Part shown: positions 2,697 through 60,670 of the stretch, one piece after another
Layout: every line of letters starts with the position of its first letter
Position numbering within the stretch: the stretch's first letter is position 1
Assembly: GCA_026874595.1 (NCBI GenBank)
Contig: CM049314.1
Coordinates: 58,578,300-58,642,299, forward strand
Direction of reading: 5' to 3'
DNA: 64,000 nucleotides
Source of the DNA: Sipunculus nudus
Taxonomy: Eukaryota; Annelida; Sipuncula; Golfingiida; Sipunculidae
Notes under the pieces: model-generated
The model's input: the letters and a program-made list of their open reading frames with translations, nothing else
Told to the model about the DNA's origin: nothing
Database searches by the model: none
Program-made: the position numbers and the translations under genes

Positions 2697-3800
2697 GAAA
2701 ACTATCAAACTATAAATTTACTTTAAATCAGAGCCAACCTAAAGATTATGTGGTTTTCGTTTGCACAGAATCAAATTTTAGTTTCAGATTCAACTAACTG
2801 AACTCAGCACGAAGGATATTGCAAGAGCAAACTAGTAAAAACCAGAACAAAACAATTCTTCTGTACTGAATTGACACTATTCCAGATCCAGGAAAAAATA
2901 TAGTTATAATGCTGATTTTCTTTAGCATATGCTCCACCGTTTCGATAAAACGTTTTCTGGAAGTCGTTTCAGCAGTTATTGGATAATTCAACTACCAATA
3001 AACCAGAGCAATAAAAAAATCACGCATGGTAAAAAACATAACCTGCGTGACGGGGCAATTAAACATTTAATTTAATTAAATTACAATCGCCAGGTCAATG
3101 TGTACTCTGGTCGAACGCTCCTATACACGAGCTACAAATGCACTTGACAACCTGTCGACCTAGACGATGAAATCGCTAAATATATCTCATTGTGTAATTT
3201 TTATAAACAGCAGATGTGCCTTGCGTTGTTTTTTCCGAAGATGATTAACGTACCAGACACTGGCTGGCACTAGAGGGAAGGTGAAACTCCTTATATCTCA
3301 GTAGGTCAAGATGTTGTGTCACCTTCACAGAGGTTCCTTGGACTAGAAGGCTGACTCAAAGGAAAGGTCTCTCTCTGATCACCAAAAAAAGCTTGCGTTG
3401 TTTTTATTTTTGTATTGAAGCCATCACATTGGACTTTTTTAATTTTTGTAATTTTTGTAAATAGCCGTTACTTTGTTATTCAAATAGAGCATGTATTCTG
3501 TTAAAGTACCATAACACAAATCTTACATATGTGATGTATTATGTCTGGTGTAAGTATATACACATCACAACCATTCATATTTTTGGGGGAAAGTTTTGAT
3601 CAAATATCTTGTCGGTGGGCGTTCTGTTTTAATCCACAGTGAATAACCATCGGATACAATTATTTTTTTTGTTCTTGCAAATCTCAAATACGGGTAAAAT
3701 CACATATTTGCAACTTATATTCATTTTTGACCTTGACCTGATACCATTCGTCCTACACACCGACACCCCGTTATCGCGTCCCCACGTATGACCTGTGCTC

Positions 3801-19127: not shown

Positions 19128-20121
19128 CGGCTGTTTTTACATATCCAATCCATAGGTTTGTGACGCATTCTACAATGACGGAGCTGCCACGTAGTGCACG
19201 AACTGCGCATGTGCAGGAGGAGCCACTATAAGTGAGAAACTTTATAGACAGGCGGCGACACTTTCGTATATTTAGTGACAAAGCTGATAGGTGGCAGCAC
19301 ATTGAAGTTCAAGGACGTTACTCACCTTGGCGACTCGTAAACATGAGCGAATATGTGGGATGCTGACAATGACATGGTTTCTAAAGACTGGATTGTATAG
19401 TAAGACTCAGAACGCAGTTAAAGTCATGTGGGGAACTTGTAAGTTTTTATTGTTATATGTAACTATGTACTTTTTGTTTTATGTTCATACAGTACGAGTC
19501 TCGTTAGCTTTAATTATTCCACTCAAGCTTGGATATTACCCTGACCCTTCTGCACATACAATGTTTATAATTATATCAACATCAGTAAGAATAATATTAA
19601 TAGCATGCAGTTACTCTTACTATTCCAACCCACGGCAATACCATGCCTCTGATATTATACATAAAATAACCAGAGGATCTAACGTACGATATTTACTGAA
19701 ATTTACACAGTGTATAATTAAATACATTAGTGATCTGATGATAATATATCATATTTTTAATTATATCAGGATCTGTATTGTGTCACCTCAATTTCCACAC
19801 GACAGTAATATAATTAATTTTAACATGTCACACTTTACAAATTTAGTCTGTTGTTCTGACATAAGTGTTTTTACTACAATTGAAAGATGTACTTTATATC
19901 TGTTGTCGAAATATTGTCTTCTCGTTTGGAGAACAAATGTTTCTTTGGCCAAATAACCGTGCAATTTTATGTATTTTCTGCCCATCAGGTGGCTATTTTG
20001 TATAGCATAAACAGTTATACCAACTTATTCTCTAAGTCACATGTGAGTGTCATACACAAATTAACTCTTCCTTATAGCTGTGAAGCATACCTATTTTTTT
20101 CTCTTCTTTTGATATAATTAT
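19128..20121 (+). other. LINE inter-ORF spacer, unusually long
   Basis: About 1 kb between the ORF1 stop and the start of the endonuclease. It includes an open frame of about 209 codons (19,327-19,956) with Ile/Tyr/Leu-rich, membrane-like composition and no recognisable domain. It is either spacer that happens to be open, or foreign sequence inserted between the ORFs. Confidence 0.5.
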
Positions 20122-23100
20122 AATGGTGGATTTAAGTATACTTTCAATGTGAGAGGCTTAAACAACTACAACAAACGCAGACAGGGGTTTTATTGGCTGC
20201 AGCAAAAAGATCATGGAATAATATTTTTGCAGGAAACTCATAGTTCCCCTGCTACCGCTGCTCAATGGAGAGCAGAATGGGGACACATTTTCATTTTTAA
20301 TCATGGCAGCTCCAATGCCCGGGGTGTGGCAATTATGATAAAGAACAGAGTGTCACATGAAATTCATAATGTATACAAAGATGAAGATGGTAGGGTTATT
20401 ATAATTGACATCACCATTGGGAATGTGCGGTTAAACTTAACAAATATATATGGTCCAAATATAATGAATGTAAAATTTTATTCAAACATTTTTTTATAAA
20501 ATTGAGAACAGCCATAACAACAGTAATGTGATAGGTGGTGATTGAAATATAGTTTTAAATCCAGCATGTGATAGAACAAGTAATTGCACCACAAGAAACC
20601 AGGTAATTAAATCAGTTAATGAATGGATGGATGAACTAGATCTGATCGACATATGGCGATATATCAATCCAAAGAAAAAACAGTACACTTGGATGCGTCT
20701 AATCCCTAACTATACTGCAAGTAGGTTAGATTATTTTCTGTTATCTAGAGATCTAACCACTCAGCTATCGATATAAATATCACATATTCCCAAAACCAGA
20801 GAGGTCCTGGGTTCTGGAAATTTAATGTTTCCCTATTAAATGATGAAGAATTCGTGAAGAAAATTAAAAACTGTATACAGACAACAGTCGAAGAAAATAA
20901 AGATGCGAATCCATCCTTGTTATGGGACACCATAAAAAATGGCAATAAGAAGAACAAGTATTAGTCATGGTATCATAAAGCAGAAACACATTAAAAATCA
21001 GATATCTGAATTAGAACAAGATTTGATAAAATTAAAAAATGCTAATATTCAGAATGAAGACACACAAAAAGGAAGTTAAAGAATTAGAAAAAAAAGCTTA
21101 ATAAATTCATAGAAGAAAAAACTAAAGGTGCTATTATTAGAAGTAAAATCAGATGGTATGGAGAAGGTGAGAAATCAACAAAATATTTTTTTAATTTGGA
21201 AAAACGCAACTTCAATAAAAAAGTGATAAGCAATTTGAACATAAACGGTAAAATAATATCAGATCCAAATGAGATACTACATGAAGAAAAGTACTTTTAT
21301 GAAAAACTTTATACATCAGATAAAACGCATAACATCAGCAATCTTTTTTCTTTTATAAAAAAATATAATTTACAAGTTAAGAAAGTACAAAAGATTACAT
21401 GGCCAACAGAATTGACAGAAAATGAATTGTTCAATAGCTTAAAATCTTTTTCGAATGGTAAATCGCCTGGATCTGATGGCCTACAAGCAGAATTTTATAA
21501 ATATTTTTGGAGCGATCTTAAAAAGTATTTTACGAATGCACTCAATTATTGTTTTAGAACTGGTTCATTATCGATAACACAAAGACAGGGAATAATTAGC
21601 CTATTGCCTAAAAAAGGGAAAAACCTTCAATATTTGAAAAACTGGCGGCCACTGACACTACTAAATTGTGATTACAAGATAATTTCAAAAACTATTGCAA
21701 ATAGGATAAAACAAATAATTAAACAATTAGTTGATGATGACCAGACTGGATTTATCAAAGGGAGGTATATAGGAGAAAATATTAATAAAGTGCTTACTCT
21801 AATAGACCATGTAAAGTATAATAATCAAAAAGCCTTTCTTATGACAATCGATTTTGAAAAAGCCTTTGATTTTTTTAGAATGGGACTATATATATACAGC
21901 TTTGGAAATTATGAACATTGACAAAAATATAATATCAATGATAAAAACTCTTTATCATAACATAAGCAGCTGTGTGACTAATGATGGATATTTCTCTGAA
22001 TTTTTTTCAGTATCTAGAGGAGTACGTCAAGGGTGTCCTGTTTCTCCATATTTATTTTTACTTTGTGTGGAGTTATTGGCTGATGCAGTGAGAGCAAATA
22101 AGAAAATAAAAGGTATTAATATTCAAAATAATATGATTAAAATTGCACAATATGCAGATGATACCATTTTATTAGTAACAGATACTGAAAGTATGAAAGA
22201 AGCACTCCATACTATAAAGGAATTCAGTATGTTTTCTGGTTTGAGGATTAACCTAGATAAAACAACAATAATGCCTCTTAAAAAGGGCAATAATGTAGAA
22301 GAAGATGAAGTCAAAAAACTAAATCTAAAATGGTGTAATGAACAGGTCAGTGTATTAGGCATAACTATCACTCCATCATCGCAAAATAGAATTAATATTA
22401 ATTACTTACCAAAAATAGAAAAAATAAAAAAATTAATAACTGTGTGGTCTCAGAGAAAACTGACCCCAATTGGAAGGATAACAATAACAACAAGTTTAAT
22501 AATTTCTCAATTTATTTAATTTTTATCAGTCCTTCCAAACCCACCGAAAGAAATCTATAGTCAGGTTGAGAAAATGTTATTCAGATTTATTTGGCATTAT
22601 GGAAGAGAACTGGTGAAGAGAAACACATTAATTTCTGCTCCCAAAAATGGGGGATTGAACATGATACATTTATTAACCCAAAGTACAGCACTAAAAATCT
22701 CATGGATTAAAAGGTTGATAAGGAAATCTGAGAATAATGCATGGAGGTAATTTGTTTTGTCTTATCTTAAATTGGGTACCCATTCTTTTCGTTGTAACAT
22801 TGCACCAGAGGATATAAAACACATATTGAATAAGCCTTCAACATTCTGGGAAGATGTAATGTTCCAGTGGTGTTACTATAACCATAAAGCTCCGTTAAAT
22901 TTTGCTGATATTATGTCACAATCTCTTTGGTTTAATTCATATATCAAGAGAGGGAGACAGATAATATTTATAAAGAAACTCTACTCAGCAGGGGTTTTAT
23001 ATATCCCTGACTTGGTCACAAAAATAGGAAATAATATCTCATGGTTAAGTCACCATGCATTTTGTAAAAAAATATAAAGTGCACATTGATTTTGTAAGCT

Positions 23101-23840
23101 ATAATGGTTTACTTCGCTCCATCCCTCTTAGCTGGACAAATGTTATCAAGCAACACCATGAACAAAACCAGGTAAAACAACATGTTTTCAAAATAGATAA
23201 TCTTATGACAATGGAAAGACCTGTCAAGTTAACTTATAATGATTTAATAATGCAGAAAGCAGTATTGCCTGAAAAAATCACTGCCAAATGGAAGGCAGAG
23301 TTAGATCTAGATTCAGATGTCAATGTTTATAAGGGCTTTAAACACATTTATTTTTCAACCATATCAGTTCCACTCAGATATTTTCAATTCCGGTTACTAC
23401 ATCGCTTTGTAACTCTGAACCCTTTTTAACATAAAATTAACAAAATTGATTCAGCTGAATGCACTTTTTGTAAAAATGAAAAAGAATCTCTGTTGCATTT
23501 ATTCTGGGATTGTCCATTTTCAAAATATTTATGGAATGAAATAATTATACAATTAAAACTATTCGGCTTTTTAGACAATTCTCTTCAGTTGACAGCTGAA
23601 ACTGCAATGCTGGGATGTTATGATAATGAATCGATAAACCTACTGACTCTACTAGTGAGGAGACATATATATGTGAGCAGATGCAATAAACAAAAACCAA
23701 CAGTTGTGACTCTGAAAGAATTCATCAGTGAAATACATACAGTAGAAAAATATATAGCTGTCAGGAAAAACAAACTGGATCACCACGAGAAAAAGTGGTC
23801 ACCAATGAAATGTTTTATTCCTCATACTCTACAAACTTAG
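20122..23840 (+). pseudogene. LINE ORF2 (endonuclease-reverse transcriptase), broken
   Basis: The AP-endonuclease-like domain starts at FNVRGLNNYNKR and has FLQETHSS, GVAIMIKN and LTNIYGPN. It frameshifts near 20,495 and continues with ASRLDYFLLS. Reverse transcriptase spans 21,100-22,520: GEKSTKYFFNLEK, NGKSPGSDGLQAEFYKYFW, LKNWRPLTLLNCDYKI, IDFEKAFD, RGVRQGCPVSPYLF and catalytic QYADDTILL. One frameshift lies near 21,870. A stop at 22,517, an in-frame TAA at 22,748, a frameshift near 23,065 and a stop at 23,428 follow. The C-terminus has a Cys-Cys-His-Cys knuckle, CTFCKNEKESLLHLFWDC. These motifs fit the L1/Tx1 clade. It would nick the target and copy the element into DNA. Confidence 0.93.
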
Positions 23841-31066: not shown

Positions 31067-34000
31067 CTGAAAGTAAAGGATAAAAATATGATAAATGTTC
31101 ACAAAAACCTCTTGAGGTGCTTTGATAAATGTTTTAATATTTTCTCGCGTTGCTTGATAAGTGTTTGAATATTCTGTTTTACTATTTTGAAAACAGTTTA
31201 AATATTATTTCGCAGTGCTTTGATAATTTTTCATAAATTTCCTCGTGGTGATTTAATAAATGTATAAATATTTGCTTTTGGTGTTCTGATAAATATTAGA
31301 CAAGGCCTACAGGCAAGATACGAACCTGTGCAATGGGATATACATCAGGTATAATGCTTCCATGCTTGACAGTATCTATTGAAGTATATGTGTGACATGT
31401 GTATGTACAATGCAAGCACTGAACAATTTGAACCCGAGTGCATGCACCAATTACACGAGAATCACTGATGAAATACTGGAATAGGTGCACACAAAACAAA
31501 AATGAACGTGAGTGGAAACACCAGTCTTTTATACGAGAAAGCATTAAGGATGTATGGATTTAAACAATTTCAGGCTTCACACAACACTCCCGCTATGTGC
31601 ACAGATTCAGGGAACAACTTGATACAGGTAGTCGAAAGCAAATACGTGTATCCGCCAAAATCAAAGTAGTACAGGTGAAGTATGGCATGGATTGAGTGGT
31701 AAGGTAAAATATTTCAGTTTGATGGATGTCTTCCACGTAAACATGATTGTAGGTTGCACCCCAATAGCCTATACTGCAAGTCAATCCTGAGAAAAAAAGG
31801 GAATTCAACAAAAACGGAAAGGTAAGTGGCGCCATCTGTCTTGTTTATTTGAAAACTTTCTCAGACGGATGAACATGCCAAATGTCAGACCAATACCTTT
31901 ATCGACTCTTGAGAAATTGGCAATTTTCACCCAAAGTATATGTATGGATGGACGCCACAGGAGAGCCTACGCAGCTAATATATGTGAATAATAACTAAAT
32001 TCAGTCTCCATAATTCAGCCAAATATCATTCATGTGGAACCATTAAAGACAATTATTATAAGAATTATTGTGGGGATTATTCCTGTAAAATATTAAACAA
32101 ATTTGCTTCAGTGGCGTCAAACGAAAAACGGTTTGCAGGTTTATAGCTCATAACGGAAGTTACAGCTAATCGGTTAAGTTCAGCTAACTCAGCTAACTCA
32201 GCCAAAAATCACTGAACTAAAACCATTTTTACAAACTTGAACTATCAACATCTGAGGATAATTAATATGTAAGATAAAATGCTTCCCAGATAAGTCAATG
32301 GATGATAAAATAGTGATTTCGGTTTATATTATATAGGTTGGAAAGGAAGAGTGTCCTGAAAGAAGGCCAGTCTAGATAGGTCATGCGTCCTGCCCCGATA
32401 TCACCTCAATATGTCCCAAATCTAATGTTAACACACACACACACACAATCACACACACACACACACACATATATATCTATATTTATAGATATATATATAT
32501 ATATTGTCAACACTTCCCCCGATGTGCCCCCTTATTATCCCCGTTGTTGTGACAATATGAGGTCGGGACACAAGGGGTGATGCGGAAGAGTGGCCTCACC
32601 CCGAATGGCGCAAATTCTGATGTCACCCCGCTGATGTGCACGTAGTAGAGACCAGTGAAGGCACAGACTGCTTGGTTCTCCTGCCAGGCCCCGCCCTCGT
32701 TCACTTCGGTGTGATCAAATACTAGAGGGTCTTGGTTTGACGTCACCGGACTTCCGCGAAAAACGGACCAGGCCGTACGGATAGGTCGCTGTGTGCTGTA
32801 CTGGAAGCCCCCAAAAGTCGTCAGAAAATTACTGTTGGAAAAGCCTTCGTATTCAGAATACAACTGGACTGTATCGCCTGCGAACATGCTCAGCATTATG
32901 GACCTCTGGAAGCTGTCCACGTCGACTGCGACGTCGGGATGCCTGTGTACACGATACACATCAACACCATTTATCCGTAAATGCAGGTCTGCCCTGTTCC
33001 CTGCTGCAACCCCTGTTGAGAAGGTGAAATAATAGATCCCCGTGTCGGGTACTGTGAAGGTATTGGTGTTGTAATTCCATGCCCCGATGCTATCTGCAAA
33101 TATCGTATCAAACATGACCTGACCAGAGGTGAAATTTGTGCTCTTGCCCACCGAAAACCCTACCGTCGTTTGCATCAGTCCGGATAGAGACAGCGTTCCC
33201 CATGATGTGGCGAGGGTGTCCACGGAACTCATCAGTCTTGGCCCATCAGATCTGATGGACAGTTGGTCGTAGTAGTTGAACGAAGTGATGAAGTCTTTTC
33301 CCATCACGGACTCGTCGAAAGTATCACCCGATGCATCACGATAAATGGCGGTCATGGTGGTGGTTCCTCGCTGAAGCTTGTAATTTGTTAAGCTGTTTCC
33401 GGGATGCCCAGCTGACAAACTAATGAGATACAGGCCCGAATAAGGAATGGTCAGCCTCCACGTGTCCTGGTTTAAGTGACCGCCGCTGTTGATTACGAGT
33501 GCATCAAAGTTAGCCGGATCCCTGGCACCGTCATGAGAGTAAATGTTGGCGGCAAAGGAGGCCTGGTCTGTAAGAATAGTTAAAATGCTTATAATCACAT
33601 GCGAAATGTGTATATTAAGCGTCTCATTCACTATGCTAAACAATGAGCTCAAAAGAATGTTAGCAGCCTCTACAACAATATCAGAAAATACAGATACAGC
33701 ATTAACACAAAGCAGAAAATTATTAAATACATCTACGATGAACTTTCTTAGATATCAAAGGTACTTAGCCAAATCGTGTATGTTGTAATGTAAAACTCTG
33801 GCTTTTATCGAATTTCCATAAATTTTTGCAAACATGCTTCCATTCAAAACTTTGGACCATTATGTAACTTAAAATCGATGGTTGCACATTTCTTCCGCCA
33901 TGTAGGATAATTGGCGTCCACATTAAACCCTGGTCAATGGCTTTTCGGATTATGAGGTCAGTCTGTAGTTTTACGCCATTACATAGATAAATTTGCCAAT

Positions 34001-49424: not shown

Positions 49425-50978
49425 GGACATGTGCAATTCTAGAAAAGTACTTGCTCATCCAACTTAAAAATAAACACGGCGTGTTAAGAGAACACTTACA
49501 AAGGACAGCGAACAGCATCCCTGAACCAGTGGTCATCTTTACAGCGTGCAGTTGTTGTCAGGCGGACTGCTGCTTTACACCGTGTATGAGATTTATAAAG
49601 TGAGAAAACACCTTGCCTTTTCTCACATTTTTTATGACTAAGATCCGGAAAGGCTTCATATCATATCGTGCAACTAGGGATATTGAGTGCATGTGGTTCT
49701 TACACACGGTCAAAATCAAATTTCCATTTACCAATAATCGTACAATAATTAAAGGATGTAGGCGTGGCCACAACAATTTACACCACTCAAAAATCACCCG
49801 ATGCACGGAACTTGCCTTTTCGCGGATACATTTCCTCCTGGACTCTGTCCCATGAGTAGTTTATTGTATATATCATTCTTGCCGTTATTCTAACAGACCA
49901 TGATGATTAAGTAATTACTAATTTGCTTCATGAGGAATCACATCCTTGTGAGAAACAATGTTCACTTGTTCCCGGTAATTTTTGTTTTGTTCTAAAAATC
50001 TCAGTATCTTTTGGGAGTGACACTACTACAATGGTCTCTGACGCACATGATAAATGTGAAGATTTCGTCTTTTTAATCGCTGTCTACCATTCTAACAGAC
50101 CACCCTTAGGTAAACTATCCAAATAAATGTCCTTTTAACCAGAGCCTACCCAAGGAGTATGTGGTCTTCATTTGCACAGAATAAAATTTTAGTTGCAGAA
50201 TCTGCTTACAATTGGCAACACGTAAGATATTGCAAGAAAAACAATTAAAACCAGGGCAGAACAATTCTTCAGTACTGATTTGACCCTTTTCCACATCCAG
50301 GACAAACTATGATTTTCTTTAGCACATGCACCACCGTTTCTTTAAACATTTCTTGGATGTCGTGTCAGCAGTTTCTGCATAATCCAACTACCAATAAAAC
50401 AAAGCGATAACAAAATCACGAATGGCAGGGAACGTAACCTGCGTGGCGGGGGCAATTAAAAGTTTAAATAAATTACAATCTCCGGTCAGTGTGTACTTTG
50501 GTTGAATGCTCCTATGCACGAGCTACAAATGCACCGGAAAACCCGTCGACCTAGACGATGAAATCGCTAAATGTATCTCAGTGTGTTATTTTATAAAGAG
50601 CAGATGTGCTTTGCGTTTTATTTTCCCGGAGATATGTAACGTACCAGACACTGGCTGGCACTAGAGGGAAGGTGACGCTCCTTTTTATCCCAGTAGGTCA
50701 AGATATGTGTCACTTTCATTGAGTTCACTTCGCGGAAGAGACGAAGGTCTTGAAGGTTGACTCAAAGGAAAGGTCTCCGTCTTGAAACGTGACCACTATG
50801 AAGCTTGTGTTATTTTGTTTACAGTTAAAATTTGGAAGATTGAATAAAAAAAAACTGTCGATTGTTTATTCAAATAGAGCGTATATTTTGTTAAAGGAAC
50901 CATAAAACAGAGCTTACATTTATGACATATTAAGTATCTGGTGTTAGTATATACACATCACAACCTTTCATGTTTTTT

Positions 50979-51009
<31 letters not shown>

Positions 51010-51150
51010 GGGGTCATTTTTATCAGATGTCTTGCGGGTGGGCTTTCCGCTTTAATCCTTAGGGAATAACCATCGGTTACAATTTGTTTTATTTTTTCTT
51101 ACAAACCTCAAATACGGATGAAGTGACATATTTGTACCTTATATTTATTG
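49425..51150 (+). repeat. Segmental duplication, copy B, part 2
   Basis: Matches 2,010-3,725 throughout, including CCCGGTAATTTTTGTTTTGTT, GACACTGGCTGGCACTAGAG and TATACACATCACAACC. A run of T then about 24 G at 50,972-51,013 replaces a short TTTTTGGGGG in copy A. Confidence 0.9.
50005..50109 (+). CDS. Possible exon in duplicon B, unidentified
   Basis: An acceptor-like AAAAATCTCAG and a donor GTAAAC bound 105 bases that are open in one frame, encoding SFGSDTTTMVSDAHDK and, further on, VYHSNRPPL. Both ends have the same phase, as in a modular exon. The copy A counterpart is frameshifted and lacks the donor. There is no recognised domain and no further exons were found, so this may be chance. 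Confidence 0.25.
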
Positions 51151-52469
51151 TTTGCCGGAAATCTTCGATTTCGGCAAGTTGGTTGGTCAGTCGCGTATGT
51201 CTGTCTGTCTGTTTGTTGCTTGCCGGAATCAAAGATTCGGCAAGCATGTTGATCACCTGCGTATGTTTGTTGCTTGCCGGAAATCTTCGATTTTCGCAAG
51301 CTGGTTGGTCAGTCGCGGATGTCTGTCTGTTTGTCTGTCATCTCTCTACAGGTCTCAATTTTGCACCAATCACTTTCAAACTTACACACTTTATAGATAA
51401 TCAAAAATGCAAGAAGCCTATTGTTTTTGGTCAACATTGCTCTAAGGTCAAGGGTCAAGGTCACGACAGGTATGGTTAACGGTTTTTGCACTATAACTTC
51501 GCCATAATTAGGCTTATCCACTTCTGCAATAGTTCATTTTTTTTCGTCATCACCTGGCCTTTCTTTTGACATGTAGCTTACTTAAATTTGCTGTTACCAT
51601 GGTTACGCAATTTTGGGGAGAAATCATGGAATTTCGTGATATTTTTCAAATTTGCAGCAATCGTACTGATTCTGAGATATTTTATGTAACACAAGAATAT
51701 CTCGAAATTGTTTTTTCAGATTTTTGAAAAGGCCGCCAGGGGGCGTTGCAGATGAAAAAACATGAAATTTTTTTTTGGTGCTATACCTCCAGAACTATTA
51801 AACATTGGGCCATTTCCATCACAGCACCTTCTACTGGGGTCCATGGGCTTATTTTTGCGCATAGGTGCCAAAGTGCGCTATTGCCAGATTTCTCTATTTT
51901 CGGGGTAAAACTTTTGAATTTTGAAAATATGCAGTTTTCAGCTTCTAACTCTGTCTAGTTTTTATGGTGAGTTCTCGGTGATCCAATCAAAAATCTTGCA
52001 AAATCTCGCACCGTTTCTCGTCAAACGAGAGTCTTCGATATTTCATTAAATATGACCTACAGGTTGCATTTTTTTAACAATGGCTTTGAAATTGATATAT
52101 TTTGTGTTATTTATAAATATCTCGAAATCAGTTTTCATTTTTTGGAAATAGCCACCAGGGGGCGTGGTACCTGAAACACTGTAACATATCATTTTTCTGC
52201 AATATCTAAAAAAATTTTAAATATGGCACAATTTTTATCGTTGTATTTTAAACTAGGAACATTGGCTTATTCCTCCGCACATGTAGCTTTGTGCTGCCGT
52301 TACCATGGTTACCAAATTTGTGGGTTAAACTTGACGATCTGAAAATATGCAGTTTTTGGCTTCTATCTCGGTTAATATTTATGTTTCAAGGGTCTAGTTT
52401 TTTGCATAAGGCTGCTTCCCCTTGGTTCTAAGTCATTCAATTGCAAGTCTCGTCAAATTTCGCTCGGTT

Positions 52470-53550
52470 TATCGTCAAACGAGAAAAAACGAGATTTCAC
52501 GGAAATGCTTATAACTCGGCGACTTTTACAGCTACACAGGTCTAGTTTTCGGCATTTCAAAACATATGACCAGCTTGACACGCCAGAAAAGAAATCAGGC
52601 CGAATCTCGCACCATATCTCGTCAAGCGAGAAAAAAACAAGATATCATGGAAATGCTTATAACTAGGCGACTTTTACAGCTACTCAGGTCTAGTTTTTGG
52701 CATTTGGTAACATTTGGCCAACTTGACATAGTAAAACTGCGATACTTGGTGAAATCTCGCACTATATCTGGTCAAATGTGGAAAAACGAGATTTCACAGA
52801 AATGCATATAAGTCGGCGACTTTCACGGCTAGACAGGTCTAGTTTTTGGCATTCATTAACATTTGGACGGCTTGACATGACAAACCTGCAAGACTGGCCA
52901 AATCTCGCACCATATCTCGTCAAACGATAAAAAAGGAGATTTCACAGAAATGCTAATAACTCGGCGACTTTTACAGCTAGACAGATGTAGTTTTCGCCAT
53001 TTCATAACATTTAGAGAGTTTGATATGACAAATCTACAAGACTGGCCAAATCCTGCACCATATCTCGTCAAACGAGAAAACACGAGAGTACACGGAAATG
53101 CTCATAACTCGGCGACTTTTACAGCTAGACGGATCTAGTTTTCGCCATTTCGTAACGTTTAGCCGTCTTGACATAATAAAACTGCTCGTCTTGCCAAATC
53201 TCGTACTATATCTCGTCAAGCGAGAAAAAAACATGATTTCACGTAAATGCTGATAACACGGCGACTTTTGCAGCTAGACAGGTCTAGTTTCCGGCATTTT
53301 GTAATATTTGACAAACCTGACATGAAAAAACTGGAAATCTCGCCAAAGCTCGCACCATTTCCCGTCAAACGAGAAAACACGAGATTTCATGCAAATGCTT
53401 ATAACTCAGCGGCTTTTATAGCTAGACAGGTCTAGTTTTCGGCATTTCATATCATTTGGCCAGCTTGACATGACAAACCTGAAAACGTCTCACTGCTTCT
53501 TGTCAAACGAGATTAACGGGATTTCATGAAAAAATGTTGAACTTGGTCCC
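52470..53550 (+). repeat. ~148-bp tandem subrepeat, about seven copies
   Basis: The phrase ACTCGGCGACTTTTACAGCTA recurs about every 148 bases (near 52,513, 52,661, 52,810, 52,960, 53,107, 53,257 and 53,404). Each copy includes GGTCTAGTTTTCGGCATTT and a CTCGTCAAACGAG hairpin. Located in the first higher-order unit. Confidence 0.9.
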
Positions 53551-53907
53551 TTTTACACTAGAAAGATATGCAGCTGTTAAAGGTCAGCATGCATAAATAA
53601 ACATATTATCCGTTTCTGCTGCCCCCACAATGTTTCTCATTCATATATGTTTCTACATGCACTCTCTGTCTATCTGTGTGTATCATTTCCATTTCCGGCA
53701 AGCGCGTGACCTCTGGTCAACCTGTTGCTTGCCGGAATCAAAGATTTCGGCAAGCATATTGGTCAGTTGCGTATGTCTGTTTGTCTGTTTGTCTGTCTGT
53801 TTGTTTGTCTGCACTCTCCTGGCCACAATTTTGCCACAATCACCTTGAAACTTTCAGAGATGATGGAGAATTAAATTTCTAGGTGCCCTATTGTTTTTGG
53901 TCAAAAT

Positions 53908-53933
53908 AGGTCAAAGGTCAAGGTCAAGGTCAT
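53908..53933 (+). promoter_or_regulatory. AGGTCA direct-repeat cluster (nuclear-receptor-like)
   Basis: AGGTCAAAGGTCAAGGTCA followed by another AAGGTCA: a DR1-spaced pair and TCAAGGTCA extended half-sites. Counterparts are at about 51,440-51,467, 56,519-56,540 (degenerate) and 59,449-59,474. Function is inferred from the motif. Confidence 0.35.
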
Positions 53934-54339
53934 CAAAACTTCTCAAAACAGTTTTTTCTTCATATCTTTGTGACTAATAGTCGTATCTACTTCAACAATA
54001 GCTCATTTTAATCGTCATTCCAAGGCCTGTCATCTGGTGTGTAGCTGACTCAAATTTGCCGTAACCATGGTTACAAATTTTGGGGGAAAAGTCATGATAT
54101 TCGAAATTAAGGGGCCTTATTTTTCTAACTTTGTCAGTTTTAAAGCTAGAGAGACCTAGTTTATTGCATCAGGTAGCATTCAACTAGTACTACAAGATTT
54201 TATTACAAGTCTTGCAGTATCTCGTAAAATATCTCGTGAATAGAGATATTTCGAGATTTCATTCATCTTGCGCCAAAGGCCACATTATTGCAGGAATCTT
54301 TTTGAAACTGACATATCATAAGTCCTACACTAGTATCTC

Positions 54340-56160
54340 GAAATTGTTTTTTCATTTTTTGAATATGGCTGCTAGGGGGCGCTGTACACGAGCCTCACAC
54401 ATATATCATTACATTGGCCATATCTCTAAAACCCAAAGCCTTAATTACATAAACTATAGTTTATTTTTTTTTCTCTGAGTCTTCTCCATAAACTGATAAT
54501 GTCATCTGGTCTCAATCTTGTGTCACTTTGTCAGTGTGTCTGTCTGTTTCTCAGTTGTCCTGAAATTCGCCTGCTTGCTGGTTCTTGCGTCTAACAATAG
54601 CATTCTACAGGCCACAGTTTTTAAAGAAGCATTTGTAAATTGATGCATATTATATTTTACAGAAATATCTCAAAACTTATTTTTCATTTTCCAGATATGG
54701 CCGCTAGGTGGCGCTGCACATGACCCTCGCACACATATCATTATATTGACCATATCTCTAAAACCCAAAGCCTCAATTACAGAAACTATGGCTTATTTTC
54801 TTTCCCTGAGTCTTCTCCATGATCTAGTAATGTCATTTGGTCTCAATCTTGTGTCATTTTGTCAGTGTGTCTGTCTGTTTCTCAGTTGTCCTCAAATTCG
54901 CCTGCTTGCTGGTTCTTGCGTCTCACAATAGCATTCTACAGGCCACAGTTTTTAAAGAAGCATTTGAAAACTGATGCATATTATGTTTTACAGAAATATC
55001 TCAAAACATATTTTTCATTTTCTGGATATGGCCGCTAGGTGGCGCTGCACATGACCCTCACACACATATCATTATATTGACCATATCTCTAAAACCCAAA
55101 GCCTCAATTACAGAAACTATGGCTTATTTTCTTTCCCCGAGTCCACTCCATGATTTAGTAATGTCATCTGGTCTCAATCTTGTGTCACTTTGTCAGTGTG
55201 TCCGTCTGTTTGTCAGTTGTCCTCAAATTCGCCTGCTTGCTCTTGCGTCTCTCATATAGCATTCTACAGGCCGCAGTTTTGAAAGAATCCTTTTGTTATT
55301 ATTACATCTTAATTCTTACACTAATATCTCGAAACTAATTTTTCATTTTCCGGATATGGCCGCTAGGGGGCGCTGATCTCAAACCTCTCCCAACATATCA
55401 TGCTTTGGCAATATCTCCAAAACTTTAAACCTCAGTTACATAAACTGTAGCTTTTTTTCTTCCTTTGAGTCTTCTCCATAACCTGGAGTAGTCATCTGGA
55501 CTCAATCTTGAGTCACTTTGTCAGTGTGTCCGTCTGTTTGTCAGTTGTGCTTATATTCGCCTGCTTGCTGGTTCTTGCGTCTCACATATAGCATTCTATA
55601 GGCCACAGTTTTGACGGAATCCTTTTGAAACTATTACATCTTATGTCTTACACTAATATCTAGAAATAACTTTTTCATTATCGGGATATGGCCACTAGTG
55701 GGCGCTGCACACGACCCTCACACACATACCATTGTATTGGCCATATCTCTACACCCAAAGCCTCAGTTACATAAACTATAGCTTATTTTCTTCCTTTGAG
55801 TCTTCTCCAAAACCTGATTAAGGCATCTGGTTTCAATCTTCTGTCACTTTGTCAGTGTGTCCATCTGTTTGTCCGTTATCCTCAAAGTCGCCTGCTTGCT
55901 GGTTCTTACGCCTTACATATAGCATTCTACAGGCCACAGCTTTGACGGAATCCTTTTGAAACTGGGACATCTCATGTCATACACTAATAATACGAAACGC
56001 ATTTGTCGTCTTCGGAATATGTCCGCCAGAGGGCGCTACAGTCGAGCCTCCCAAGTATATCATTAATTCGCCATACCTCCAAAACTAAAAATCTAAATTA
56101 CATAAATCATAACTCATTTTTCTTCCTTTGAATCTTCTCCATAACTAGATTAAGTCATCT
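54340..56160 (+). repeat. ~330-bp tandem subrepeat, six copies
   Basis: GGCCGCTAGGTGGCGCTGCA and variants recur near 54,368, 54,700, 55,031, 55,360, 55,692 and 56,023. Each is followed by CACACATATCATTATATTG, CATATCTCTAAAACCCAAAG, a GTCACTTTGTCAGTGTGTC segment and CGCCTGCTTGCTGGTTCTTG. Two more copies are in the fourth unit (59,912 and 60,243). Confidence 0.92.
54701..54718 (+). promoter_or_regulatory. CTCF-like core motif, representative of ~15 in the array
   Basis: CCGCTAGGTGGCGCTGCA closely resembles the bilaterian CTCF core (CC-N-S-Y-AG-R-K-GGCGC). Other same-strand matches start near 51,733, 52,152, 54,368, 55,032, 55,360, 55,692, 56,023, 56,970, 58,154, 58,361 (shortened), 58,573, 59,161, 59,912 and 60,243. 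Binding is an inference from the motif only. Confidence 0.45.
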
Positions 56161-57116
56161 GGTGTCAATCTTGTCTCACAAAGTCAGTATGTCTGTCTGT
56201 TCGTCTTTTGTTGTCAGCTTTGTCTGCTTGCCTGTTCTTTTGTCTCATATGTCATTCTACGGGCCACATATTCTCAGCAATATCCCTGAGAGTCATTCCA
56301 TTAATAGAAAACCGACAATATGTTCTGTCTGTCCGTCTGTGTTTCACTTCCGATTTCCGGCAAGCGTTCTACCTATGGTCGTCTAGTTTGTTTGTTTGTC
56401 TGTCTGTCTGTATGTCCCCGCTCTACAGGCCACAATTTTGCACCAATCGTCCAGAAACTTATAGATAGAGTGTATAATCGGTTCTTCTCGGAGCCTATTG
56501 TTTTTGGCCATGGTCGGTTCAAGGTCAAGGCCAGTGTCACCGAAAAACCTTAAAACGGTTTTTCCTTCATATCTGTGTCAATAATTATCGTAGCGGCTTA
56601 ATCTTTAGCTCATTTTATTCCTCATTTTGTTGCCTTTTCACATGCCAGCAAATTGTCCCGATCAATGATTACCATGGTAACGTATTTTGGGGGAAAACGT
56701 CACAAAATTTGAATTTTTTTTTCTAATTTTTCCATTTTTGGAGCTAGAGACGTCTGGTTTTTTTGCATTAGGAAGTTTTCAATCAGGTGTTCATCATAAT
56801 GTACCAAGTCTCGTAGAATCTCGTGCCATTACTCGTCAAACGAGATTTTTCGAGATTTCATTAAATATGACCTTGAGGTCGCAATTTTTTTAACTATGGC
56901 TTTGAAAATGACATATTTTGTGTTATTTATAAATATCTCGAAATCAATTTTTCTTTTCTTTGGAAATAGCCACTAGGGGGCGTGGTACCTGAAACACTGT
57001 AACATATTATTTTTCTGCAATATCTAAAAAAATATTAAAGGTGACACAATGTTTATTGTCTTATCTGAAACTAGGATCATTGGCTTATTCCTGCGTACAT
57101 GTAGCTTTGTGCTGCT

Positions 57117-57130
57117 GTTACCATGGTAAC
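57117..57130. promoter_or_regulatory. X-box-like palindrome, representative of six
   Basis: GTTACCATGGTAAC is a perfect palindrome matching the RFX X-box consensus. Related copies are at 51,593, 52,299, 54,061 (GTAACCATGGTTAC), 56,668 and 59,602. Function is inferred from the motif. Confidence 0.4.
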
Positions 57131-58079
57131 CAAATTTTGGGGTAAAACTTAACAATCTGAAAATAATTAGTTTTTTTGCTTCTATCTCTGTTGATATTTA
57201 TACTACAAGGGTCTAGTTTTCTGCATGAGGTAGCATTCCTTTGGCTCTAATCCAGTCAATTGGAAGTCTCGTAGAATCTCGATCTGTATTTCCGTCAAAC
57301 GAGAAATTACGAGATTTCGCAGAAATGCTGATAACTCGATCACGTTTTAGGTTAAAGAGTATACGGTTTCAGCCTCTGGTAGCCTTTCGGAAGCTTAACA
57401 TGATCAAACTGCAAATCTCGCCAAATCTCGCATCATCTCCCGCCAAACGAGAATATTCGATATTTTTAACAAAATATTCAACAAATGTCTATATCTCTTT
57501 CAATTTTATGCTAGAGATTTCATTTTTCTACTGTTCAACAATCATTAGATTAGTGTTAAGTGATATAAGTGAATATCTCGTTATATCTCGCACCATTTGT
57601 CGTCAAACGAGAACAGTGGACCATTTAAACAAATGCCTATTATGCTGTCATTTTATCCCCTACAGACATATAGTTTTCGGCATTTGACAGCGTCTGACAC
57701 TCTCATTCACATCATGTGATTTTATTGCAATTCTCGTCAAATCTTGCCTCGTTTTTCATCAAATGATGAAAATACATCCAATTGCCGTGAGCACAAGTGG
57801 CTTCAGGGTTGACTGGTAAGTGCCGGCAAGGCTATTACAGTTGCATGTTGGCGTCCGCGGTCATGCATGAATCTCACAAAGCAGCATTGAATAGAGGACA
57901 AAAGCCGCTAAATGTGGAGTGAACACACCTGTGATTTTTATTGTGTCCTCTTGTGCGGCCACTTGTGTTGCCAGGAACCACTGGCAAATCTTTGAAACCA
58001 GGGACGGATCCCCGATTTTGTAGTTGGGTGTGTCAAAATATGGGCTGATCCCTGGTTTAGCAGTTGGGGGCAGGAGTAA

Positions 58080-59230
58080 AATTTTAATTATACATCAAAT
58101 ATATATATTAAAATAAAATATCTGGAAACTTTTTTTTTCCTTTTAGAAAATAGCCCCCAGATGGCGCTGCAGCAATCATTAATGTGCCATATCTCCAAAA
58201 CTATAGACAGTGTCACAACATTGATTGCAGCTTCTGAAACTAGATTTAGAGCGTTTAACCTCGTTGGGACTCTGTCGTATTCCGCGGGGGTTAAATTTTA
58301 ATTATACATAAAATATATATTATTAAAAATAAAATATCTCGAAACTATTTTTTTTCCTTTCAGATGGCGCTGCAGTAATCATTATTGTGCCATATCTCCA
58401 AAACTATTGACGGTGTCACAACATTGATTGCAGCTTCTGAACCTAGATTTATACGTTTTCCTCGTGGGGACATTGTCATATTCAGCAGAAGTTTAAATTT
58501 AATTATACATCAAATATTTATTATAAAAAAATAAAATATCTCGAAACTTATTTTTTGTCCTTTTAATAATAGCCCCCAGATGGCGCTGCAGCAATCATTA
58601 TTTAGCCATATCTATAAAACTATAGATAGTGTCACAACATTGATTTCAGCATCTGAAACTAGATGGGTTTATCCTCGTGAAGACTCTGTCATATTATTCC
58701 GTTACCTTCGGGGCCTAATATAGGTTACAATTAAATTCTTCTTTTTCCTGAAATTCAAAATATGAAGATTTATTCTAATTGACTGACGCTTATTTTATTT
58801 ATGCTTTCCATTCTCCATGACAGGAGTACATTGCCTACACATGGAGTTATTTTCCGTCTGTCTGTCTACTCATTTGTGGCTATTGAAAATCAGCGAAATC
58901 ACATAAAAATGTGCTTCCATTTTAACCATGATAGCGGTTGTTCATTTGATCAGATCCAAACGTTCCCTGTCTGTCTGCCTAGTAACTGTCCGTCTGTTTT
59001 GCTGTCTTATTTCCGGCCATTTCCGGAACTAGATTTAATGCATTTAACCTCGTGGGGACTCTGTCGTATTCTGCGGGGGTTAAATTTTAATTATACATCA
59101 AATATATATAATAAAAAAATAAAATATCTCGAAACTTATTTTTTGTCCTTTTAGAAATAGCCGCCAGATGGCGCTGCAGCATTCATCATTGTGCCATATC
59201 TCCAAAACAATAGACAGTGTAATACGTTCC
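58080..59230 (+). repeat. ~205-bp subrepeat with CCAGATGGCGCTGCAG
   Basis: Copies near 58,154, 58,361, 58,573 and 59,161 share AATATCTCGAAACT, CCCCCAGATGGCGCTGCAG, CATATCTCCAAAACTA and a TAATTATACATCAAATAT segment. The last copy is displaced by inserted leader-like sequence at about 58,760-59,030. Confidence 0.8.
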
Positions 59231-60597
59231 CTGTCTGTCTGCCTAGTAACTGTCTGTCTGATTCGCTGTCTTATTACCGGCCATTTCCAGCAAGCGTTCG
59301 ACCTCTGGTCGTCTAGTTTGTTTGTTTGTTTGTTTATTTGTTTGTCTGTGGACTCTCTACAGGCCACAATTTTACAGGAATTGCTTTCAAACTCACACAG
59401 CTGGTCAATAATCAAAATTTCAGGAAGCCTATTGTTTTTGGGCACAATAGGTCAAAGGTCAAGGTCAAGGTCATCAAAAGTATACAAAACGGTTTTTTCT
59501 TCATATCTTTGTTACTATTAGTGGTATCTTCTTCAAACATAGCTCATTTTAAACGTCATTCCAAGGCCTTTCTTCAAGTGTGTAGCTCTTTCAAATTTGC
59601 CGTAACCATGGTTACGCATTTTTTAGGGAAAAAGTCATGATATTCTGAAATAAGGGGTCTTATTTTTCTAACTTTGTCATTTTTAAAGCTAGAGAGGTGT
59701 AGTTTTTTGCATCAGGTAGCATTTAACAAGTACTGCAAGATTTTATTAAGAGTCCCGCGATATCTCGTATAATATCTCGTCAAACGAGATATTTCGAGAT
59801 TTCAGTAATCTTGCCCTGGAGGTCACAGTTTTGCAGGAATCTTTTTGAAACTTTCATATCGTAAGTCCTACACTATTATCTCGAAATCGTTTTTCCATTT
59901 TTTGAATGCAGCCACTAGGTGGCGCTGTATGCAAACCTCCCCAACTTATCATGTTTTGGCCATATCTCCAAAACTGTGAGCCTCAATTACATAAACCATA
60001 GCTTATTTTCTTCCTCTGAGTCTTTTCAAAATTCTGGTGGAGTCATTTTGACATAATCTTGAGTCACTTTGTCAGTGTGTCCGTCTGTTTCTCAGTTGTC
60101 CTCAAATCCGCCTGCTTACCGGTTCTTGCGTCTCACATATAGCATTCTACAGGCCACAGTTTTAAAAGATTCCTTTTAAAACTATTACATCTTATGTCTT
60201 ACACTAATATCTCGAAACAAATTTTTCATTTTCCAGAATTGGCCGCTAGGCGGCGGTGCACTCAAACTTGCACAATATATCATTTTTTGGCCATATCTCC
60301 AAAACTATAAACCTCATTTACATAAACTATAGCTTATTATCTTCCTCTGAGGTTTCTCCATCACATGATTAAGTCAACTGGTCTCAATCTTGGGTCAGTT
60401 TGTCAGTATGTTTGTCAGTTGTCCTCAAGGTGATCAAAACATATCAACATTTATTTTCTTCAGAACTTTGTTAATATTGATCCTATCTTTACAAACTAGG
60501 GATTATTTTCTTTCACTTTGACATTGATCGTTTATCTGACTAACTTTACGTCATTTCCGGCAAGCGCGTGACCTCTGGTCATCTAGTTTTTTTTTTT

Positions 60598-60670
60598 ACC
60601 TTGACCTGATACCATCGGTCCTACACCCCGACTCCCCATTATCGCGTCCCCACGTATGACTTGTACTCAA
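60598..60670 (+). repeat. Segmental duplication, copy B, part 3
   Basis: ACCTTGACCTGATACCAT, CCTACAC and TTATCGCGTCCCCACGTATG match 3,731-3,800; the similarity then ends in both copies. This short tract proves that the 51,150-60,597 block interrupts the duplicon. Confidence 0.88.

Follow-up and report, generated by a model that had tools for sequence, protein, structure and literature searches.

Within the window, the 64,000-nucleotide stretch of Sipunculus nudus DNA analysed here, positions 51,149-60,586 are occupied by four HINE-type elements (non-autonomous Helentrons) lying end to end (Table 1). This region had been described as one 9.4-kb repeat array, a description that gives way to four elements of a dispersed family. 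The HINE-type features are sub-terminal repeats, a GTCT/GTTT microsatellite, central repeats of about 331 bp, a 3' palindrome and CTAG-type ends, an anatomy that matches the description of HINEs in general in PMC4067079. The 3' sub-terminal repeat and palindrome occur in all four elements (at most one mismatch in the repeat and two in the palindrome), and the 5' sub-terminal repeat with its adjacent inverted partner in elements 1 and 2, as well as in the single element L036. The tandem repeats comprise 331-bp (5.9 copies), 203-bp (2.8 copies), 148-bp (6.8 copies) and GTTT-type arrays. Element 2 matches L031, on a different contig, at 97.3% over 53,725-56,389 (BLAST). The longest stop-to-stop frame within the array is 152 aa, and T-rich sequence abuts the element ends.

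Table 1. Coordinates of elements, CTCF-like sites and the C1q-domain ORF in the window
Feature	Position	Strand	Details
C1q-domain ORF	32,507-33,754	-	about 17 kb from the array
HINE-type element 1	51,149-53,724	+	3' end CCTG
Element 1, 5' sub-terminal repeat	51,152-51,160		inverted partner 51,169-51,177; more copies at 51,220 and 51,274
Element 1, interior			GTCT/GTTT microsatellite, then central repeats including 148-bp sub-array 52,472-53,484
Element 1, 3' sub-terminal repeat	53,693-53,701		palindrome 53,708-53,718
HINE-type element 2	53,725-56,386	+	end CTAG 56,383-56,386
Element 2, 5' sub-terminal repeat	53,729-53,737		inverted partner 53,745-53,753, then microsatellite
Element 2, central part			six 331-bp repeats, one CTCF-like site apiece
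Element 2, 3' sub-terminal repeat	56,355-56,363		near-palindrome 56,370-56,380
HINE-type element 3	56,387-59,316	+	begins at microsatellite, without 5' sub-terminal repeat; end CTAG
Element 3, short repeat type	58,070-58,664		about 203 bp
Element 3, 3' sub-terminal repeat	59,285-59,293		palindrome 59,300-59,310
HINE-type element 4	59,317-60,586	+	begins at microsatellite, without 5' sub-terminal repeat; two 331-bp repeats; end CTAG 60,583-60,586
Element 4, 3' sub-terminal repeat	60,555-60,563		palindrome 60,570-60,580
CTCF-like site AGGCCGCCAGGGGGCGTTG	51,730-51,748	+	21.4 bits
CTCF-like site TAGCCACCAGGGGGCGTGG	52,149-52,167	+	22.7 bits
CTCF-like site TGGCTGCTAGGGGGCGCTG	54,366-54,384	+	18.0 bits; T at position 5
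CTCF-like site TGGCCGCTAGGTGGCGCTG	54,698-54,716	+	25.6 bits
CTCF-like site TGGCCGCTAGGTGGCGCTG	55,029-55,047	+	25.6 bits
CTCF-like site TGGCCGCTAGGGGGCGCTG	55,357-55,375	+	27.0 bits
CTCF-like site TGGCCACTAGTGGGCGCTG	55,689-55,707	+	23.1 bits
CTCF-like site TGTCCGCCAGAGGGCGCTA	56,020-56,038	+	23.9 bits
CTCF-like site TAGCCACTAGGGGGCGTGG	56,967-56,985	+	21.5 bits
CTCF-like site TAGCCCCCAGATGGCGCTG	58,151-58,169	+	20.9 bits
Truncated CTCF-like site CAGATGGCGCTGC	58,361-58,373	+	5' half gone
CTCF-like site TAGCCCCCAGATGGCGCTG	58,570-58,588	+	20.9 bits
CTCF-like site TAGCCGCCAGATGGCGCTG	59,158-59,176	+	23.2 bits
CTCF-like site CAGCCACTAGGTGGCGCTG	59,909-59,927	+	26.4 bits
CTCF-like site TGGCCGCTAGGCGGCGGTG	60,240-60,258	+	21.1 bits

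Positions 51,100-60,600 were scanned with the CTCF matrix of vertebrates (JASPAR MA0139.1). The scan returned 14 sites above 14 bits, all on the + strand and none on the - strand, with scores of 18-27 bits; together with one truncated site they span 51,730-60,258, about 8.5 kb. In 100 dinucleotide shuffles of the same region the mean number of such sites was 0.02 and the maximum 1, and positions 1-51,100 hold two, against 0.52 expected from shuffles. The original prediction counted about fifteen same-strand motifs and called for a scan against shuffled sequence; the count and the excess both hold, and its four quoted examples are present at their positions. A chance origin of the motif is ruled out by the shuffles together with the genome-wide recurrence of the repeat. 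The spacing of the sites is irregular (328-332, 419, 588, 751, 947, 1184 and 2217 bp) because the stretch consists of four HINE-type elements end to end. Forms of the CTCF-type motif written in this work are CCRCYAGRKGGCGCTG and CCRCYAGRKGGCGC.

A CTCF orthologue, which the species was to be checked for, is encoded at C11:67037578-67038510. It matches at 56% over the zinc fingers (308 of 312 query residues), and its best PDB match is CTCF (7w1m, E 2e-109). The recognition residues are unchanged in fingers 3 and 5, show one conservative change in finger 4 and are partly changed in fingers 6 and 7.

The repeat is dispersed throughout the genome. A box-to-box pattern that ignores the motif matches the central repeat 4,040 times genome-wide, in both orientations, and the reversed pattern 0 times; an earlier reversed-pattern control is weaker because reversal alters the CpG make-up. 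Exact HINE 3' ends number 344 (control 0), and the best 41 non-self matches of one 361-bp unit, with 40 of 3,032 candidate places scored, show 93-97% identity and are spread over 15 contigs. A motif above 14 bits is present in 147 of 166 copies found by their flanks, in 98 of the first 100 of 1,177 motif-blind matches and in 60 of 62 rows drawn from 100 listed of the 4,040 matches, while for two of four element ends picked motif-blind the roughly 2.4 kb upstream hold no site that exceeds 12 bits. As to a possible autonomous Helentron partner sharing these ends, the genome holds at least 143 matches to Helitron_like_N, with 150 of 195 candidates scored, and several of them fall within open frames of more than 2,000 aa.

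These counts bear on the proposal that the locus is a dedicated DXZ4-like CTCF insulator or boundary whose target would be the C1q-domain gene or a duplicon. Fifteen same-strand sites within 8.5 kb, in a species that has CTCF, would suit such a role. However, the same repeat recurs elsewhere at similar site density (at least 2 of 20 comparison loci, L025 with 15 sites and L026 with 16 in 9.5 kb each), the elements are heterogeneous and interrupted rather than a homogeneous array, single copies show no sign of constraint, and the nearest C1q-domain ORF found lies about 17 kb off. We regard this role as very improbable. A unique macrosatellite array was rejected on the dispersal of the repeat, and neither the DXZ4-like single-locus boundary nor the insulator next to C1q envisaged in the original prediction is supported. 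The single orientation of the motifs stands for this stretch, but it fits the polarity of the elements, the family being present in both orientations genome-wide.

A tree test was made on 141 copies collected by their flanks, counting tip (terminal) and internal changes per 19 columns. The motif was omitted from its tree, and each of 21 overlapping control windows was likewise omitted from its own, a check against a tree artefact; the copies are related and able to exchange sequence, and 20 loci of the sample were picked through a motif hit. The motif shows 66 terminal and 36 internal changes, against control means of 67.9 and 81.7. Its internal share is 0.35, the controls range from 0.47 to 0.64, and 0 of the 21 windows are as low. 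Among nine windows the motif ranks lowest, both with every locus included and in each of the 22 leave-one-locus-out sets, and against the eight pooled non-overlapping windows (share 0.56) the difference is strong (Fisher 6e-5). A GC artefact was set aside, as the top internal share, 0.64, belongs to the control window richest in GC. At matrix positions above 1 bit, with the 19 motif-selected copies dropped, there are 1.38 internal changes per column against 4.54 (Fisher 1.6e-4). Only this mechanical set was used, since a 'core' set (1.12 internal changes per column) had been chosen post hoc. In the set of all 160 copies, internal changes are as few as at the motif's high-information positions in 5 of 123 slid windows, and deep changes in 13 of 123; the deep contrast is not significant in this set (p 0.14).

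The picture differs in single young copies. In a young subfamily on C1 (71 copies) the motif carries 14 kinds of change (23 copies) and the adjacent 19-bp spacer also 14 (28 copies), and 10 of the 14 motif kinds affect matrix positions above 1 bit. A second subfamily, with 35 distinct rows, has 0.47 kinds of change per motif column, against 0.56 and 0.54 per column beside the motif. Simple constraint on every copy was rejected, as in young copies the motif is lost at the same rate as the spacer. The expectation of slower substitution inside the motif than outside is split by these results: it fails in young copies, which equal the spacer, and holds in multiplying lineages, which are slower than 21 of 21 controls. 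The tree pattern is consistent with selection that acts on the site at the level of multiplying lineages rather than of individual insertions.

The same young subfamilies, and the common descent of all copies, would also be expected if the motif were a passenger, derived from the founding repeat, spread by transposition and tandem amplification and of no use to element or host. Nevertheless, changes at the lineage level number under half the control mean, whereas those at the tips are on a par with it, and this result holds on removal of any locus. Moreover, three flank CpGs show 18, 31 and 29 changes and the CpG at motif positions 15-16 shows 7; this last CpG is retained in 152 of 160 copies, in agreement with the nearly constant GGCG(C) noted originally. 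We consider a pure passenger unlikely.

Position by position, the agreement with CTCF is uneven. Position 5, almost invariantly C in the vertebrate matrix, is T in 29 of 160 copies (11 changes) and is looser than vertebrate CTCF allows, as judged from the copies, and position 16 is G in 157 of 160. Matrix information correlates with internal changes at rho -0.44 (p 0.06) or, in a second analysis, -0.47 (p 0.04), and internal changes weaken the matrix match less than terminal changes do, though only at p 0.04 in one analysis and 0.08 in another. A tidy match to the vertebrate matrix at each position was set aside. The claim that variation falls where CTCF tolerates it survives in part at the lineage level, but not at positions 5 and 16 or in young copies.

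These departures from vertebrate CTCF raise a further possibility, in which the box, with two neighbours, serves the element through another DNA-binding protein, rolling-circle transposition or tandem amplification. The conserved boxes AATATCTCGAAAC and GGCCATATCTCCAAAAC flank the CTCF-like box at near-fixed spacing and equal it in overall conservation. Their internal shares are 0.45 and 0.50, respectively, and that of the first box, which lies nearer to the motif, is not separable from the motif's own (p 0.25). Two common conserved segments are likewise reported for oyster HINE monomer groups whose repeats are otherwise dissimilar (PMC7492417). However, the tip/lineage contrast peaks in the CTCF-like box, and the two other boxes show no significant departure from the controls (p 0.11 and 0.27). 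The CTCF matrix is matched strongly over a long motif, with up to 27 bits in the stretch, and in L007, L008 and L028 the motif is present at a second place in the unit too, with different flanks. A route independent of CTCF seems unlikely.

The explanation that we prefer, which comes close to an even chance, is that Helentron-borne CTCF-type sites are kept since they help the element to spread, probably via host CTCF. Host CTCF would bind the site in the germ line, and binding may keep these copies open or protect them from silencing, which would favour the spread of lineages whose site is intact. Many CTCF-type sites would then be scattered as a by-product, with most inserted copies, this array included, free to decay. 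A stronger form, in which a Helentron lineage exploits host CTCF, intact-site copies out-propagate and thousands of tandem sites were sown by selection on the transposon and not on the host, appears rather doubtful.

The architectural role of CTCF outside vertebrates is unsettled. Thousands of CTCF-type sites in tandem, borne by one transposon family, offer a natural experiment, since copies both intact and decayed lie in either orientation at numerous loci, and the tip-versus-lineage contrast is a means of telling selection on the transposon from selection on the host. According to PMC10658181, direct evidence that loop extrusion or compartments form domains is lacking in invertebrates; its authors know of one spiralian study tying CTCF sites to domain borders.

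Close counterparts in structure are the Pacific oyster's Cg_HINE elements, non-autonomous Helentrons whose central repeats resemble satellites (PMC7492417). As described there, they share with the present elements the 5' sub-terminal repeat and its inverted partner, a GTCY-type microsatellite, central tandem repeats, the 3' sub-terminal repeat, the 3' palindrome and dispersal in both orientations. The oyster units are predominantly 140-180 bp, whereas the main unit here is 331 bp and carries a CTCF-type site; the main text of the oyster paper makes no mention of CTCF (PMC7492417). DXZ4, like the present stretch, has same-strand CTCF-type sites in tandem units, and beyond New World monkeys its reported conservation is limited to the promoter and CTCF site; however, its 3-kb units form one X-linked array without interruption, in contrast to a dispersed, heterogeneous transposon family (PMC3218863). 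A CTCF site within an invertebrate mobile element is also described for Drosophila R1, as one ChIP-confirmed site near the R1 start in rDNA, whereas the sites here are predicted and lie in tandem repeats (PMC3024428). Mammalian retroelements likewise spread a CTCF motif genome-wide, with binding shown (PMC3368268). The present case differs from theirs in being a rolling-circle DNA element with several predicted sites per copy, and in that selection on element lineages was tested (PMC3368268).

A scan with the vertebrate CTCF matrix located 14 sites that score above 14 bits, every one on the + strand and within 51,730-60,258, compared with 0.02 expected in shuffles of the array sequence and only two in 1-51,100. 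Together with one truncated copy, they bear out the original prediction of about 15 same-strand CTCF-like motifs, whose quoted sequences and positions are correct. Mean pairwise identity among the 14 copies is 0.78 in motif columns versus 0.58 in other columns.

The array had been taken for a single 9.4-kb repeat array, but its repeated ends do not agree with this. End structures recur around the tandem units: TTGCCGGAA with an inverted partner, and TTCCGGCAA-type repeats, after each of which come, in order, the palindrome GACCTCTGGTC (exact or nearly so) and CCTG or CTAG. Positions 53,725-56,389, which span the complete second element and three bases more, are 97.3% identical by BLAST to a locus on contig C8, and a single element elsewhere in the genome (L036) has the same plan. 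The plans described for HINEs in general (PMC4067079) and for oyster Cg_HINE elements (PMC7492417) match it as well. The window array is therefore four HINE-type elements in a row. Helitron_like_N proteins have at least 143 matches in the genome, several in open frames of >2,000 aa; none was tied to the ends of window-type elements. Within the elements, we also observed GTTACCATGGTTAC palindromes, resembling RFX X-box sites; GGTCAAAGGTCAAGG-type direct repeats, one per element, which resemble nuclear-receptor sites; and eleven copies of the palindrome CTCGTCAAACGAGA, over half of them within or adjoining the 148-bp sub-array. Elsewhere in the window, an identical 29-bp stretch at 3254-3282 and, 47 kb away, at 50645-50673 suggests that a segment was duplicated.

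Features of the window and their coordinates
Feature	Position	Strand	Detail
Truncated CTCF-like copy	58,361		additional to the 14 full sites
331-bp tandem unit	54,326-56,268		Tandem Repeats Finder
203-bp tandem unit	58,070-58,664		Tandem Repeats Finder
148-bp tandem unit	52,472-53,484		Tandem Repeats Finder
TTGCCGGAA and inverted partner	51,152/51,169; 53,729/53,745
TTCCGGCAA-type repeats	53,693; 56,355; 59,285; 60,555
GTTACCATGGTTAC palindromes	51593; 52299; 54061; 56668; 57117; 59602		<=1 mismatch
GGTCAAAGGTCAAGG-type direct repeats	51439; 53909; 56516; 59450		<=2 mismatches
CTCGTCAAACGAGA palindromes	52017-53512; 56832; 57599; 59776		<=1 mismatch
Retroelement-like ORFs	20113-23840	+	RVT_1 reverse-transcriptase domain in 21088-21921, E 4e-15; inferred non-LTR type
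415-residue open frame with C1q domain	32507-33754	-	E 2.3e-20, two stretches

Across the genome (1.43 Gb, 153 contigs), the pattern CCASYAGRKGGCGCTG has 1,190 matches and its reversal one. Twenty loci picked from these matches on contig C1 (L011-L030) contain 25 of them; flank models place family flanks at 18, and by eye four of the other seven (L016, L020, L026, L028) resemble divergent copies of the family and three (L023, L024, L029) do not. A pattern whose only anchors are the two boxes flanking the motif gave 4,040 matches (control 0), and a second motif-ignoring pattern gave 1,177 (control 0), the first 100 of which keep a >14-bit site in 98 cases. Among four element 3' ends chosen blind to the motif, two have CTCF-like sites upstream and two have no such site, one of the latter (L036) retaining a remnant. 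In diverged repeats (L007 at 1500 and 1644; L028 at 4424, 4571, 4871 and 5020), the site occurs at two different places, ~147 bp apart, with different flanks. A 7 Mb region of C1 (~61-68 Mb) holds 36 of the first 100 C1 CTCF-pattern matches listed and several Helitron_like_N matches. At G000:C1:7645181-7654199, eight central repeats at exact 1,274-bp spacing are a higher-order tandem array built from the element.

Flank models alone gathered 166 copies from one genome, mostly one contig and with 20 loci selected by motif hit; 147 have a >14-bit site. The motif was left out of the approximate FastTree tree, which joins 160 distinct copies, including array copies that may exchange sequence. On this tree, Fitch parsimony counted 5.8 changes per column in the motif versus 8.3 in the flanks (Mann-Whitney p 0.011). 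The split between terminal changes and internal ones, kept in multiplying lineages, is more telling than this overall rate. After removal of 19 copies possibly favoured by locus choice, the motif columns of the remaining 141 show 66 terminal and 36 internal changes, against means of 67.9 and 81.7 in 21 overlapping control windows, each excluded from its own tree; none of the 21 has an internal count or share as low. The internal share is 0.35 in the motif versus 0.56 in eight non-overlapping windows outside motif and boxes (Fisher 6e-5), and it is lowest in the motif among nine windows in the full set and all 22 leave-one-locus-out sets. One flanking box, at 0.45, lies between motif and controls (p 0.11 versus controls, 0.25 versus motif); the other is at 0.50 (p 0.27 and 0.04, respectively). 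Motif positions above 1 bit have 3.75 terminal changes per column, and 1.38 internal versus 4.54 in the rest. The predicted slower substitution in the motif thus holds on internal branches but not in young copies (n=71), where the motif is without protection: 14 kinds of change, as in the adjoining 19-bp spacer. Motif and neighbouring-column figures in a second subfamily are similar.

By sequence comparison, this genome encodes the CTCF orthologue that the prediction presupposed: C11:67037578-67038510 matches the human fingers at 56% over query residues 2-309 of 312, inside a 989-residue open frame (906 in the fetched piece), and the best PDB match of the protein is CTCF 7w1m (E 2e-109). In alignments, recognition residues are unchanged in fingers 3 and 5, show one conservative change in finger 4 and differ partly in fingers 6 and 7. 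Variation had been described as falling where the CTCF core tolerates it, with GGCG nearly constant. The CpG at 15-16 is indeed kept, with just 7 changes versus 18, 31 and 29 at flank CpGs, but several results speak against the CTCF reading. In the 160-copy tree, 11 changes fall on position 5, which is near-invariant in the vertebrate matrix. Position 6 changes 16 times, and the CpG at 5-6, with 27 changes, decays like the flank CpGs. The constancy of the CpG at 15-16 contrasts with the vertebrate matrix, which tolerates A at position 16; a fly-type motif, with G at 6 and a strong GGCGC, would fit the position pattern better. Matrix information has a rank correlation of -0.44 (p 0.06) or -0.47 (p 0.04) with internal changes and ~0 with terminal changes. 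When all 160 copies are included, high-information positions show a weaker contrast (Fisher p 0.016 internal, 0.14 deep changes), which is equalled by 5/123 slid windows for internal and 13/123 for deep changes.

The tree pattern asks for a benefit during element multiplication, not after landing. The simplest candidate would be CTCF binding in germ cells, the place where a transposition must happen if it is to be inherited; such binding might keep the repeat open or shielded, and rolling-circle amplification and unequal exchange could then multiply units with an intact site. A host role, such as the putative insulator at C1q, is neither needed to explain the pattern nor shown. Among the titles and abstract openings listed in literature searches of a partial library, none dealt with CTCF sites in the repeats of Helentrons or of bivalve satellite DNA. 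Domain borders in the squid Euprymna are enriched for a CTCF-like motif (PMC9023564), and the Drosophila R1 element, which contains a CTCF site, provides a precedent (PMC3024428).
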